IMG/VR virus record: IMGVR_UViG_3300044730_000088
Span: 1-21,237 of that record
Source of the DNA: a virus
Reading direction: 5' to 3' (one strand)
Length of the DNA stretch: 21,237 nt
Below the pieces are notes generated by a model that was not told where the DNA came from, made no database searches, and saw nothing but the letters and a program-made list of their open reading frames with translations. The position numbers were made by a program, and so were the translations under genes. Below, in pieces: positions 5,990 to 21,237 of the stretch (within the stretch, counting starts at the first letter, position 1; each line of letters starts with the position of its first letter).

Positions 5990-6161
5990 TGGATATTTTA
6001 TTCGTGAGGAACCCCCTAAGATCGGCGCGCACTACACGCCGCAGCTCTACCAGAAGCCGGCAACGCCTGAAGAGCGGTTCGTGCAAGACATCATGCTGGG
6101 CGTGCCGGTGCGCTACGAGTCGCCGGTGGTGAAGTTCTTGGGTCGGCTCTTGAGCGTATGA
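5979..6161 (+). CDS. Small phage protein of unknown function (60 aa)
   Basis: The ATG at 5979 has the best SD in this operon (AGGAGG at 5966-5971, 7-nt spacer), so this start beats the earlier TTG. The product, starting MLRDGYFIREEPPKIGAHY, is proline-rich and has no transmembrane segment, cysteine or known motif. It overlaps the zinc-ribbon gene by 11 nt and the next gene by an ATGA junction. The coding call rests on the SD and packing rather than on homology. Confidence 0.65.
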   Translation: MLRDGYFIREEPPKIGAHYTPQLYQKPATPEERFVQDIMLGVPVRYESPVVKFLGRLLSV

Positions 6162-17007: not shown

Positions 17008-18433
17008 TGGTGCCGGTCAACACAAGTTCGGCACCCATAATAGCGATCTTGACGGGGTCGGTGCCCGACACCTCGTACACGCGGTCACGCAGCTTAGTCG
17101 TCATGCCAAGACGACGCCAGAAGGCACGATAGCCGTAGTTGCCGATCTTGCCCATGCCCGTCCAGTGTTCGTTCGACCAAGTGTGGCCGCCATCGTCTGA
17201 CCAGCGCAGCATGACCTGCGGGTCATTGCCTTGGCCAGTCACAATGCCCACACCTGTTTCGCATTCCAGCTGCAAGGTATGCTGGGCAGTCCGCTTCAAA
17301 TTGTTTTGGCCGGTTGGCAGCGCCCGCCATGACCGCAGCCACTTCTGTGGCAGGTTGTCGTCGGCGAACACGTCCAAGTCATACGCGTAAATCTTGCCAT
17401 TCTGGAAGTCGCCAACCACCACTTCGTTGTTGAAAAACATCTGGCAGTTAGCGCGGTGGCGAATGAACTCACCATTGGCAAACCCGGCGCGCTCATGCCA
17501 GGCTTGGGTAGCCATGTCAAACACCCACGTCTTTTGGGCGGTCGGGAAGGTCAGCACATAGAACGAGTGGCCGTCCTGCTGGTAGGTAAATCCAATCGCG
17601 TCTGAGATCGTGCCATAGCTCTGGATAGCGTACTCGACCGCGTGGGTGGACACCCGCTGGCCAGAATAACCTTGCGCCCGAAACACGATGCCTTGGCCAC
17701 GGGCGTCAGCCCCTAGCCAAAACAGCGAGTTGTCCATCTTGGCAACTGAGTACGTCGCAGCGCAGCCCAGCTCGTTGACCGCACCTTGGATGCGAGCCAG
17801 CGGGAAAGGCGTTGTGCCAGCGTCGTACCAGACCTCAACGGATTGCGTGCCGAACAGCCACACCTCACGATGGTCGACAAACAGCGACACCAACCGGTCT
17901 GGCATACCCTCTGCGCTGGCAAAACTCAGCGGGTCAATCTGAGTGCCATCGAGCAGCTCAGACGTCCAGAAACGGTCTGAATTAGGTTCCTGAAAGATGA
18001 AGTAGCCATCCAAATAGCCGACTGTCACCGCGCCTGGGAAATCTACGTCGGTAATCTCAGCATACGCCTCGGTCGCCGCGTCGTAGATGTAGCCGTCAGG
18101 GTTTGCCGCAATGAAGAGCTGTGTGCCGTTGTCGACCATCGACACGGGGCCAGTGCCCGACACGCCGCCGATTGGCGTCACGTTCCAATTAGTGTCGATG
18201 CGGTATAGACGCGCGCCTGACACGGCGTAGCCGTAGTCACCGTAAGCCCACAGCCCACGGATGGGGCCAGTACCGACGGTGGCCAGCTTACGCAAGCCGG
18301 GTGCCCGGTTCAGGTACGCAGGCTCGTTACCCTCTGGCGCCGGTGTGGCTTCGGGGTACAGGTTGACCATGCGGCTATCCGCAGCGTTGACGCTGCGAGC
18401 CACATAGGATTGGCCAAGAATGGGCGTCTTCAT
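17000..18433 (-). CDS. gp10-like tail accessory (packaged DNA stabilisation) protein
   Basis: A 477-aa protein resembling the P22 gp10 family, which plugs the portal-gp4 channel and holds packaged DNA. Visible signatures are the N-terminal ARSVNAADSRMVNLYPE (residues ~12-28), RAPGLRKL, then a beta-propeller-like series of repeating aromatic blades (GLWAYGDYGYAVSGARLYRI, DGYFIFQEPNSDRFW, GTQSVEVWYD, GQGIVFRAQGYS, NNEVVVGDFQNGKIYAYD). It ends with LRWSDDGGHTWSNEHW and RFFWRRLG-like residues. Length matches P22 gp10 (472 residues). The start overlaps the previous stop (ATGA). Neighbouring a gp4-like protein supports the assignment. Confidence 0.88.
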   Translation of the reverse strand: MKTPILGQSYVARSVNAADSRMVNLYPEATPAPEGNEPAYLNRAPGLRKLATVGTGPIRGLWAYGDYGYAVSGARLYRIDTNWNVTPIGGVSGTGPVSMVDNGTQLFIAANPDGYIYDAATEAYAEITDVDFPGAVTVGYLDGYFIFQEPNSDRFWTSELLDGTQIDPLSFASAEGMPDRLVSLFVDHREVWLFGTQSVEVWYDAGTTPFPLARIQGAVNELGCAATYSVAKMDNSLFWLGADARGQGIVFRAQGYSGQRVSTHAVEYAIQSYGTISDAIGFTYQQDGHSFYVLTFPTAQKTWVFDMATQAWHERAGFANGEFIRHRANCQMFFNNEVVVGDFQNGKIYAYDLDVFADDNLPQKWLRSWRALPTGQNNLKRTAQHTLQLECETGVGIVTGQGNDPQVMLRWSDDGGHTWSNEHWTGMGKIGNYGYRAFWRRLGMTTKLRDRVYEVSGTDPVKIAIMGAELVLTGTNA

Positions 18434-18885: not shown

Positions 18886-19048
18886 GATTAGTTGCACCTA
18901 ACTTACGTAAGCCTTTGCCAGTAGACCAAAGCCAATCGCCAAACCGGGCGGCTAACTGGGGCGGCAAAAAGATTTCGAGCGCGGGCGAGTACATGCGTTT
19001 AGTGCGCACGTTGAACTCAAACCAGCGAGAACGAAAAGTAACCTCCAT
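18878..19048 (-). CDS. Small virion-region protein (56 aa)
   Basis: A 56-aa protein, MEVTFRSRWFEFNVRTKRMY at the N-terminus, basic and aromatic (WLWSTGKGLRKLGA near the end). The start ATG overlaps the stop of the gp4-like gene (TGATG), and the end overlaps the next gene by 8 nt (or 20 with GTG). This perfect packing is the main support for coding. No known motif. It could be a small connector-associated protein; function unknown. Confidence 0.68.
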   Translation of the reverse strand: MEVTFRSRWFEFNVRTKRMYSPALEIFLPPQLAARFGDWLWSTGKGLRKLGATNHA

Positions 19049-19758
19049 CAGAAGTTACCTGCGTAGATGTTGTAGCGCTGATGGGTAGCAACCAGCGAGT
19101 ACGGCATGGACATCACGTCATCTGGGTTGTTGATGCGCTTCAGATTACGCTTGGACGTCATGGCAATCCGCACGACCTGCGGCATAGGCTCAACACCAAA
19201 CTCGTTAGCAATTTCCATCGCCAAGTTGTACTTGAACGCCCGCAAATAGCCCGGCGGGAAGGACAAGGTGGTGTTCAGGGTTGCTGGCTTATCCAGCTGC
19301 TGCACCGACACAAAATGCCACTCCAAAAGCCGTGTGGGCTTTGGATAGACGGTCATGGTGATGTCGGGGAACGTGTTGTTCACGAACATGACCTGCGGGT
19401 AGGTGCTGGTCACGGTCTTAACCGCGATGCCGTCGTACTGCTGCTGATTGATCAGCTTGATGCCGTAAGACACGTTAGTCTGCGGATCGCGGAAGTACGT
19501 TGCATCGTCAATCAAAATAGGACGATTGCCCACAAAGTCGCCGGTTGGCCCCAGCGTGCGGGTAATGGTGTCGGTCGGCCAAAGAAAGACTTGGTCTTCC
19601 GTACAAAAGACAGCCAGACGCTCAGTATTCCACGAATCAATCATCTGATTCATGGCGTTCAAGGCATCTTGAGCAGCCTGCGGTGTAGGCTCTTCGCCTT
19701 CGGCCAGCTGGCCAATCAGCCGGAGTGCTGCTTTGATCTGGTCGAAAGCGGTTGCCAT
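19048..19758 (-). CDS. gp4-like tail accessory / head completion protein
   Basis: A 236-aa protein of the P22 gp4 type, the first factor to bind the portal after packaging. The N-terminus has the family-like pattern FDQIKAALRLIGQLAEGEEP followed by ALNAMNQMIDSWNTERLAVF (residues ~31-50). The middle contains strand-rich segments (TITRTLGPTGDFVGNRP) and the C-terminal LSFPPGYLRAFKYNLAMEIA with a following helix. P22 gp4 is shorter (166 residues), but marine and freshwater relatives are of this length. SD AAGGAG precedes the ATG. Its position upstream of the gp10-like gene follows the P22 order. Confidence 0.87.
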   Translation of the reverse strand: MATAFDQIKAALRLIGQLAEGEEPTPQAAQDALNAMNQMIDSWNTERLAVFCTEDQVFLWPTDTITRTLGPTGDFVGNRPILIDDATYFRDPQTNVSYGIKLINQQQYDGIAVKTVTSTYPQVMFVNNTFPDITMTVYPKPTRLLEWHFVSVQQLDKPATLNTTLSFPPGYLRAFKYNLAMEIANEFGVEPMPQVVRIAMTSKRNLKRINNPDDVMSMPYSLVATHQRYNIYAGNF

Positions 19759-19767
19759 GCAGGCTCC

Positions 19768-19968
19768 TTATTCTACTGCCGCAACCTCTGCAGGCGGGCG
19801 GCTACGACGACGTTTGGGTTCCAGCTCGTTGACTGGCGCCGCTGCTTCGGGAGCCGAAGGCGTGTCGGGATTATACCGCTCCCATCCGTTTTGTTCATCA
19901 AATTCGGCTTCCAAATCCATATTGGCGACTTTGGTGCCGTGAACAGCGTGTCGAAGATAAATTGTCAT
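19768..19968 (-). CDS. Small virion-region protein with basic C-terminus
   Basis: A 66-aa protein with YLRHAVHGTKVANMDLEAEF (residues 4-23), GWERYNPDTP, and a low-complexity tail with NELEPKRRRSRPPAE. This layout recurs in short phage proteins encoded between coat and connector genes. It may bind DNA or RNA through the KRRR cluster; function unknown. No recognisable SD precedes the ATG. Instead, a strong hairpin ends 7 nt upstream, so initiation may depend on re-use of ribosomes or on the hairpin. Confidence 0.72.
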   Translation of the reverse strand: MTIYLRHAVHGTKVANMDLEAEFDEQNGWERYNPDTPSAPEAAAPVNELEPKRRRSRPPAEVAAVE

Positions 19969-19975
19969 AGGGTAG

Positions 19976-19995
19976 ATAGGGGCCGAAGCCCCTAT
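19976..19995 (-). promoter_or_regulatory. Intercistronic cUUCGg hairpin 3
   Basis: Minus-strand transcript ATAGGGGC-TTCG-GCCCCTAT: an 8-bp stem with a TTCG loop closed by C-G. It lies between the gene ending at 19999 and the start at 19968. No U-run follows, so read-through is expected. Confidence 0.65.
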
Positions 19996-19998
19996 GTT

Positions 19999-20409
19999 TT
20001 ATGCGCAGTGAATCAGCGCAAAGTTGATAACTACGGCTTCTGACAGCGAACCGCCAGAAATGTTGCGCACGGTAATAGTAACCGCGCCTGCGCTCAAGCC
20101 AGATACCCAGCAGTTGTAAGAACCTGCAGTAGCTCCAGCAGCGATATTCAAAATAATAATATCGTTGGCGCTGATAAGCGAGTTGTTCAAAGTAAACGTG
20201 ACGTTGGTTGCACCTGCCAACGCAGCGTTGTTCATGGTGATTTGACCAGCAGACTTGTTCAGCGTGACTGCGGTCGACTTGCTGGTAGCTTGCGTAACCG
20301 TACCTTGAGCAGCAGCGGTGTAGCCAAACTGTTCATCAGACAGAATGTACTGGGCACCAACGATGTCTTGATCCGTATACGCAACACCAATAGGCTTGGT
20401 ATTAGACAT
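19999..20409 (-). CDS. Probable capsid-associated / decoration protein
   Basis: A 136-aa beta-rich protein. A short N-terminal helix region (GAQYILSDEQFGYTAAAQGT) is followed by VTQATSKSTAVTLNKSAGQI and alternating polar/hydrophobic strands to the end (GGSLSEAVVINFALIH). The VTQ.TSKSTGVTLN...G.ITMN..AL motif is common in phage capsid-region proteins. It lies two genes after coat and matches no other virion role, so a decoration protein or head fibre is the best guess. SD AAGGA with a 7-nt spacer. It follows the second capsid-region protein, which has similar strand-rich composition. Confidence 0.72.
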   Translation of the reverse strand: MSNTKPIGVAYTDQDIVGAQYILSDEQFGYTAAAQGTVTQATSKSTAVTLNKSAGQITMNNAALAGATNVTFTLNNSLISANDIIILNIAAGATAGSYNCWVSGLSAGAVTITVRNISGGSLSEAVVINFALIHCA

Positions 20410-20427
20410 GATCTATCCTTTAAATAA

Positions 20428-20445
20428 CGGGGGCCGAAGCCCCCG
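20428..20445 (-). promoter_or_regulatory. Intercistronic cUUCGg hairpin 2
   Basis: Minus-strand CGGGGGC-TTCG-GCCCCCG: a 7-bp GC stem with the same UUCG loop, between the stop at 20451 and the next SD. The bases after it (TTATTT) are only weakly U-rich, so termination is uncertain. Confidence 0.65.
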
Positions 20446-20450
20446 CAGAT

Positions 20451-20858
20451 TTACTTCAGAAATGCTGAGTAAGCAGCATCGCCAGTGCGAACGAACAGGT
20501 ATGTGTAAGCACCAAAACGTGGAACAGTAACAGAACCGTAGATCGTGATGCCTGTACCAGCGGTAACTGGAACAGTAGACGATGCGCCGCTGTTATTGTT
20601 GTTGGTAATGGTCAGCTCAAACGAAGAACCTACTTTCGCGCTAGGGATAGCTGCGTCCAGCAAAGCTGCTGTAGGCAGAGTGACTGTCAGAGTTGCGTCG
20701 CTGCCTTTGTTGCACACAACGAGGCCAGCAGCTACTTGAGCGCCAGTCAGGGTGGTGTCGCCGGTCAGAGTTGTGGGGATAGACTGGACGCCAAGAACTG
20801 CCTCGCCCAGGTTGCCATCGCCAAGCTGGTATCCACCAGCGCCGTTAGGAAGAGCCAT
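20451..20858 (-). CDS. Probable capsid decoration protein
   Basis: A 135-aa protein beginning MALPNGAGGYQLGDGNLGEA, followed by beta-rich segments (TLTVTLPTAALLDAAIPSAK, GSSFELTITNNN, GTGITIYGSVTVPRFGAYTY) and a final AFLK. The N-terminal extended arm with GGYQ.GDGN is a pattern of short proteins beside phage coat genes, where decoration or cement proteins are usually encoded. The assignment is from position and composition. SD AAGGA, 8-nt spacer. Strong hairpins flank the gene on both sides, so its mRNA level could be set separately from the coat gene. Confidence 0.75.
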   Translation of the reverse strand: MALPNGAGGYQLGDGNLGEAVLGVQSIPTTLTGDTTLTGAQVAAGLVVCNKGSDATLTVTLPTAALLDAAIPSAKVGSSFELTITNNNNSGASSTVPVTAGTGITIYGSVTVPRFGAYTYLFVRTGDAAYSAFLK

Positions 20859-20886
20859 GATAATTTCCTTTCAAATAGAGTCAGTA

Positions 20887-20904
20887 TGGGGGCCGAAGCC
20901 CCCA
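20887..20904 (-). promoter_or_regulatory. Intercistronic cUUCGg hairpin 1
   Basis: Minus-strand TGGGGGC-TTCG-GCCCCCA: a 7-bp stem with a UUCG loop, just after the coat gene stop. No U-run follows, so it is not a classical terminator. It is likely an mRNA 3'-end protector or an attenuator. Confidence 0.65.
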
Positions 20905-20911
20905 CCAGTGC

Positions 20912-21237
20912 TTAGCCCCAGACGCGGCAAGCCATTTGCGGACGGATTGTGCTGTAGCCGTACAGAACGTCGATACGGCAAGGCAGACGGTCATTGTTGA
21001 TGTCGTACTGACGAACAATACGCATCGAAATACCGTTGTGGACTTGGCGGGAAGCCATGTCAACGCCTTGTGGCATCAGCAAGTCAGCGGTCGCAAAGGT
21101 GATCGCATCCTTGTGGTAGACGAGGTTCTGTGGGTAGGCAGTAGCAGCCGAACCCAGCATGGTGACAGCAGCGCCCGAAGCAGGCAGCGAAGTCACAGTG
21201 GCCAGAGCCTGGCTTGCCGAATACAGCGCTGGGAAGA
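20912..21237 (-). CDS. Major capsid (coat) protein, P22-type, C-terminal part (partial)
   Basis: Only the last 108 codons are in the window; the start lies beyond the right edge. The visible sequence contains AYPQNLVYHKDAITFATADL, then PQGVDMASRQVHNGISMRIV, YDINNDRLPCRIDVLYGY and the end IRPQMACRVWG. This matches the C-terminal end of the P22 gp5 coat family in phages, with the typical YDINND...DVLYGY...RP...R segment. The coat forms the icosahedral shell around the packaged DNA. It is the first visible gene of the leftward virion operon, whose promoter is outside the window. A strong hairpin lies directly after the stop. Confidence 0.86.
   Translation of the reverse strand, partial: FPALYSASQALATVTSLPASGAAVTMLGSAATAYPQNLVYHKDAITFATADLLMPQGVDMASRQVHNGISMRIVRQYDINNDRLPCRIDVLYGYSTIRPQMACRVWG

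Follow-up and report, generated by a model that had tools for sequence, protein, structure and literature searches.

UUCG-loop hairpins behind the coat gene and two following genes of a P22-like podovirus: conserved elements with a likely role in relative expression

The RefSeq entry of phage P22 annotates a stem_loop (6102-6119) after the coat gene, with a remark that likens its location to that of stem-loops in HK97 and lambda. At the post-coat hairpin of phage L partial termination has been suggested, its role being stated there as unknown (PMC8022706), and ST64T, which is 99.9% identical to phage L, carries AGGGGCUUCGGCCCCU in this position, followed by the U-rich tail UUCUUAUUU. In HK97, whose coat gene, like that of lambda, is not of the P22 type, RefSeq marks a putative terminator behind each of gp5 (coat), gp9 and the major tail gene, all of them G+C hairpins behind high-copy structural genes, with loops other than UUCG. 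The major tail gene of HK97 is itself flanked by putative terminators (L301, 3193-3220 and 3944-3963), which suggests that such elements commonly accompany high-copy structural genes. Lambda has AUGGCCC-UUCG-GGGCCAU between E and FI, with the same loop as the hairpins considered below, and its late transcription uses Q antitermination. In T7, the only terminator for the phage polymerase, Tphi, is placed immediately behind coat gene 10, with genes 11-12 reached by read-through (PMC5592923). Lastly, the work of Tuerk et al. (1988), as cited in PMC8948821, describes intergenic CUUCGG hairpins with the extra-stable cUUCGg loop in T4 and other phages; the functions reported for them vary, and these hairpins have no tie to the coat gene. 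A search of the literature turned up no paper that maps 3' ends downstream of a P22-type coat gene.

The DNA considered here is a viral record of 21,237 bp (referred to as the window, at its full length), whose minus strand holds a P22-type structural block: coat, four genes that I will call A to D, a gp10-like head closure protein and an ejection protein. The coat gene (20912..21235, minus strand, as are all the genes below) runs past the end of the window, and its last 107 codons, the only ones visible, match PF11651 P22_CoatProtein (E=2.5e-17) and phrog_283, major head protein (E=1.7e-25). Gene A (20451..20858, 135 aa) probably encodes a capsid spike or decoration protein, to judge from an AlphaFold2 model (pLDDT 85) whose best fold match is the capsid spike of Pseudomonas phage Pa223 (9ny6_C; E=3.4e-5, probability 1.00, TM only 0.44). 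A tblastn search of the phage collection with gene A gave no match at E<=1e-5; in a comparison within a small database, gene A of DSL-LC05 aligns with it at about 50%. Gene B (19999..20409, 136 aa) matches phrog_18251, of unknown function (E=1.1e-35), and its predicted model is beta-rich, with no significant fold match. When genomes were scanned with gene B for prophage or host relatives, the one good match lay in a metagenome-assembled genome (L117), the rest being weak and about 30 residues long. It is plausible, on the strength of these models, that A and B are virion surface proteins with copy numbers unlike that of the coat. Gene C (19768..19968, 66 aa) has no Pfam or PHROG match and occupies the position of P22 orf69, between the coat and gp4-like genes. 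Gene D (19048..19758) resembles the tail accessory factor or head-tail adaptor gp4 of P22, matching phrog_12985 (E=2e-44) and phrog_637, head-tail adaptor Ad3 (E=7.9e-11), and reaching E=5.2e-4 against PF11650, just below the family cut-off.

Gene B has a peculiar pattern in relatives. The N-terminal tag M-x-NTKxxGVAY-x-D is kept while the remainder is highly variable: the protein is between about 79 and 200 aa long, and 185 copies cluster at 85% similarity into 65 groups, a pattern that resembles a capsid anchor joined to a swappable display domain.

The spacers behind coat, A and B each contain a hairpin on the minus strand, the coding strand of the genes. J1, UGGGGGC-UUCG-GCCCCCA (20904-20887), lies 3' of the coat stop in the spacer that leads to gene A (GCACTGGTGGGGGCTTCGGCCCCCATACTGACTC...), J2, CGGGGGC-UUCG-GCCCCCG (20445-20428), in the spacer from A to B (ATCTGCGGGGGCTTCGGCCCCCGTTATTTAAAGGATAGATC), and J3, AUAGGGGC-UUCG-GCCCCUAU (19995-19976), in the spacer from B to C (AACATAGGGGCTTCGGCCCCTATCTACCCT). 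The original prediction placed three hairpins here with a common core, and they are indeed present: the core GGGGC-UUCG-GCCCC, as the 14-mer GGGGCTTCGGCCCC, has exactly three copies in the record, all on the minus strand, and is the same as that of the ST64T hairpin. Three instances of its 12-nt centre GGGCTTCGGCCC, with at most one mismatch, were seen as compared to 0.07 expected, and 0 of 100 shuffles gave three. The folded spacer RNAs have energies of -17.0 (J1), -17.9 (J2) and -14.2 kcal/mol (J3), with z-scores of -2.1, -2.7 and -2.9, respectively. The cUUCGg loop forms only in RNA of the coat strand, since the opposite strand would give a CGAA loop. All three are G+C-rich hairpins on the transcribed strand, as in intrinsic terminators, and their pairs covary in relatives; all three also have the form of the CUUCGG phage hairpins, an intergenic stem of 2-8 pairs around CUUCGG. 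Two other identities were considered and rejected. An RNase III site needs a long double-stranded stem, of about 11 bp or more, and the stems in the window, at 8 bp, are too short; no Rfam family scored above its gathering threshold, the best being a chance-level Yfr1 (20.5 bits vs 38).

J1 sits in the same place as the P22 stem_loop, with a P22-type coat protein (PF11651) directly upstream, within tens of nucleotides past the coat stop and before the gp4-side genes. P22 has one annotated hairpin and ST64T one found by folding, whereas the window has three in succession; it also differs from both in the degenerate tail of J1 and in the placement of J3 at a start without a Shine-Dalgarno (SD) sequence. 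Tphi is unlike the window hairpins in that it works on T7 RNA polymerase and has a larger stem and a full U-run. Post-coat hairpins are also present in PAE2, PBR31, X14, VvAW1, BA3, EBPR podovirus 1, CV-1-33, P26218, DSL-LC05 and others, and those of VvAW1, X14, PBR31, BA3 and P22 have U-tails. MW202520 and MW202691 have no strong post-coat hairpin, and phiAX1 has no spacer after coat.

To compare the junctions across the family, about 240 related records were used, gathered by scans of IMG/VR with gene A (at least 582 confirmed stretches, 80 of them kept), the coat fragment and the DSL-LC05 gene A. A hairpin was counted if it reached -9 kcal/mol or better within 60 nt past the stop codon. Among unique relatives one was found after coat in 80% (n=168), after A in 86% (n=166) and after B in 93% (n=121), the corresponding figures being 14% behind the gp10-like gene and 8% in random windows; about one fifth of relatives thus have no strong J1 hairpin. 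The result was similar with 49 representatives whose gene A similarity is below 85%: 37/47 for J1, 45/49 for J2 and 29/33 for J3 vs 2/17 for gp10. Gene D, behind which 41% of unique relatives have a hairpin, is a poor control, because its hairpins come at least partly from a palindrome in the coding sequence of the gp10-like gene. In the window this palindrome is CGCAGCGTCAACGCTGCG (18371-18429, minus strand), within the start of the gene, where it encodes the stretch RSVNAADSR; similar palindromes occur in relatives, a coding motif that mimics a hairpin.

What is conserved is the structure more than the letters. The relatives' junctions show GGGGGC-UUCG-GCCCCC, the same type with arms swapped (GCCCC-UUCG-GGGGC), GGGGGC-UCCG-GCCCCC, GGCUCCCGG-UUCG-CCGGGGGCC, ACGAGGCUAGUAG-GGAU-CUACUAGCCUCGU, GGGGG-CUAAUCA-CCCCC and others. 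The loops are mostly UUCG and then the stable tetraloops UACG, UCCG and GCAA. Pairs 1-5 beside the loop are standard in every kept hairpin at each junction, as compared to 58-96% with shuffled partners, and while the 100% partly reflects the selection of hairpins, the flips between G-C and C-G do not (J1 pair 5, for example, is G-C in 83 relatives and C-G in 24). Since the sequence changes with pairing kept, the hairpin structure is evidently under selection, as the original prediction had supposed, and the absence of the element from relatives, which would have spoken against it, is ruled out. In 18 genomes (603 kb), C(UUCG)G stems of at least 5 pairs number 28 within 1.3 kb after coat and 6 elsewhere on the same strand, with 14 on the strand opposite coat. 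The exact 12-mer occurs 30 times in 22 longer contigs, and strong intergenic hairpins of other types are present elsewhere in the relatives' genomes. At loci L004, L008 and similar ones the hairpin of the A-B spacer includes AATGGGGGC, whose ATG shares the reading frame of gene B and would give some relatives a possible 13-codon N-terminal extension.

The original prediction also held that no U-tracts follow the hairpins. In the window this is correct for J1, whose tail is UACUGACUC, and for J3, but not for J2, which is followed by UUAUUUAAAGGA, with a degenerate U-tract, UUAUUU, that enters the ribosome-binding site of gene B; nor does it describe the relatives, whose J1 and J2 carry U-tracts. 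The frequency of U at positions +1 to +3 after J1 in relatives is 0.70, 0.85 and 0.79, and at +1 to +6 after J2 it is 0.64, 0.76, 0.87, 0.83, 0.71 and 0.62, as compared to 0.23 overall; a U-run of 4-6 is common after J2. A terminator score of the d'Aubenton-Carafa type was higher forward than reverse in 95% of relatives for J1, 91% for J2 and 52% for J3 (Wilcoxon on representatives: p=3e-7, 5e-8 and 0.15, respectively). Directional U-tracts are therefore found at the homologues of J1 and J2 and not at those of J3. In the window itself, J2 scores d of 9 to 29, J1 about 3 (-4 for the core stem) and J3 -18 to -3, so that J1 and J3 score poorly as terminators and only J2 is positive; a terminator pattern scan called no minus-strand terminator at J1-J3, its only call there being at J3 in the plus direction. 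As families, J1 and J2 are intrinsic-terminator-like, because of the strand-specific U-tracts in relatives, and the tail of J1 in the window has decayed, its U-run lost as compared to relatives. The earlier description of the hairpins as something other than terminators finds no support at J1 and J2, in view of these U-tracts and of the annotation of the post-coat hairpins of P22 and HK97 as stem-loop or putative terminator.

J3 stands apart. In the window only 7 nt separate its end from the gene C start codon, with neither a U-tract nor an SD sequence between, and the commonest end in relatives is likewise 6-7 nt before the gene C AUG. An SD-like motif at the gene C start is found in only 7 of 62 unique relatives, and the flanks of J3 in relatives are not directional. 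Judged from this context, J3 is more likely a different kind of element, one that uses the same stable hairpin and acts on initiation at gene C. In one relative (L012) the hairpin of the B-C spacer is immediately preceded by AAGGAG and immediately followed by the start codon; with this layout the hairpin could draw a Shine-Dalgarno sequence close to the AUG.

The best explanation is that the hairpins are short RNA elements within an operon, the late (structural) transcript of a P22-like podovirus. More specifically, I would put a probability of about 0.6 on J1 and J2 being weak intra-operon terminators by which transcription is reduced stepwise after coat and on J3 being an initiation-site hairpin. 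RNA polymerase, presumably that of the host, would transcribe the G+C stem, the extra-stable cUUCGg loop and the U-rich tail, and a fraction of the polymerases would stop. The mRNA of coat would then be the most abundant, that of A lower, and that of B lower still, with the released or trimmed 3' ends remaining protected by the hairpin. J1 of the window, with its U-run lost, may now act mainly as a block at RNA 3' ends. J3, having no directional U-tract and lying 7 nt from the start of the SD-less gene C, probably limits direct initiation at C, or else makes C dependent on ribosomes that arrive from B. The U-tailed hairpins behind the coat genes of distant phages with P22-type coats support this explanation, as does the precedent of Tphi. 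Counted against termination is that, if the phage has antitermination like that of lambda Q, late polymerases would ignore intrinsic terminators; and A/U-rich flanks can also be extensions of the stem. In a fuller scheme, the two partial terminators and a J3 hairpin that replaces the Shine-Dalgarno sequence of gene C would form a graded three-step series, by which a large family of P22-like phages from the environment would fix the ratio coat : spike A : display protein B : gene C; I consider this tentative extension rather doubtful.

The hairpins might instead be pure 3'-end protectors, at which no polymerase stops and which block 3'-to-5' exonucleases after cleavage downstream, thereby stabilizing the coat, A and B segments of the mRNA unequally. 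The lack of U-tracts at J1 and J3 of the window fits such a role, as do the recurrence of extra-stable UNCG and GNRA loops and the tie between T4 CUUCGG hairpins and mRNA stability mentioned in PMC8948821 (citing Tuerk 1988 and Gorski 1985). However, a protector needs neither a U-tract nor any strand asymmetry in its flanks, and J1 and J2 of relatives have both, so I regard this reading as unlikely, though it deserves to be kept in mind. It is less probable still that the hairpins at all three junctions are translational elements, blocking the scanning or re-initiation of ribosomes and so setting initiation rates. What recommends this idea comes from J3, with its usual distance of 6-7 nt from gene C and the absence of an SD-like motif in 55/62 relatives; J1 and J2 are each separated from the next start codon by an ordinary AAGGA-type site, about 28 nt lie between J1 and the start of gene A, where such a role would be less natural, and the U-tracts would be left unexplained.

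The remaining two explanations concern the origin of the hairpins. If they were recombination joints, bounding exchangeable cassettes of a gene plus its hairpin, their conservation would reflect a common landing sequence used in mosaic exchange. The extreme variability of gene B speaks for this, as does the single hairpin that joins A to C in 6 of the 7 cases lacking B, but anchors ought to keep their sequence, yet the stems change by paired replacement, and a landing site would not account for the strand-specific orientation of cUUCGg (the 28 stems after coat on its strand, against 14 antisense anywhere in the 603 kb); I consider the idea very improbable. Recent duplication of one hairpin within the window genome, the copying that the original prediction offered as one reason for the repeated element, is hardly credible despite the identical 14-nt core. 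There is no similarity past the stems, an orthologous hairpin exists at each junction, and the presence of J1 and J2 in L001, L016 and L020 alike suggests that each hairpin predates their split. The resemblance of J1 to J3 and of J2 to J3 is not above permutation. The arms of J1 and J2 are more alike within a genome (0.665) than between random genomes (0.558; 0 of 2000 permutations as high), but the same cross-comparison between close relatives gives 0.70-0.71, no lower than within a genome, and the likeness is therefore attributable to shared ancestry and composition rather than gene conversion.

Overall, the hairpins are real, strongly conserved and ordinary in kind, the kind being already known from P22, phage L and HK97, and their most likely role is in setting relative expression. 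The structure, along with strand-specific U-tracts at two of the three sites, is conserved across hundreds of environmental genomes, and such conservation favors partial termination over chance or copying. The relatives, with or without a U-tract and with or without gene B, constitute natural variants for a direct test.
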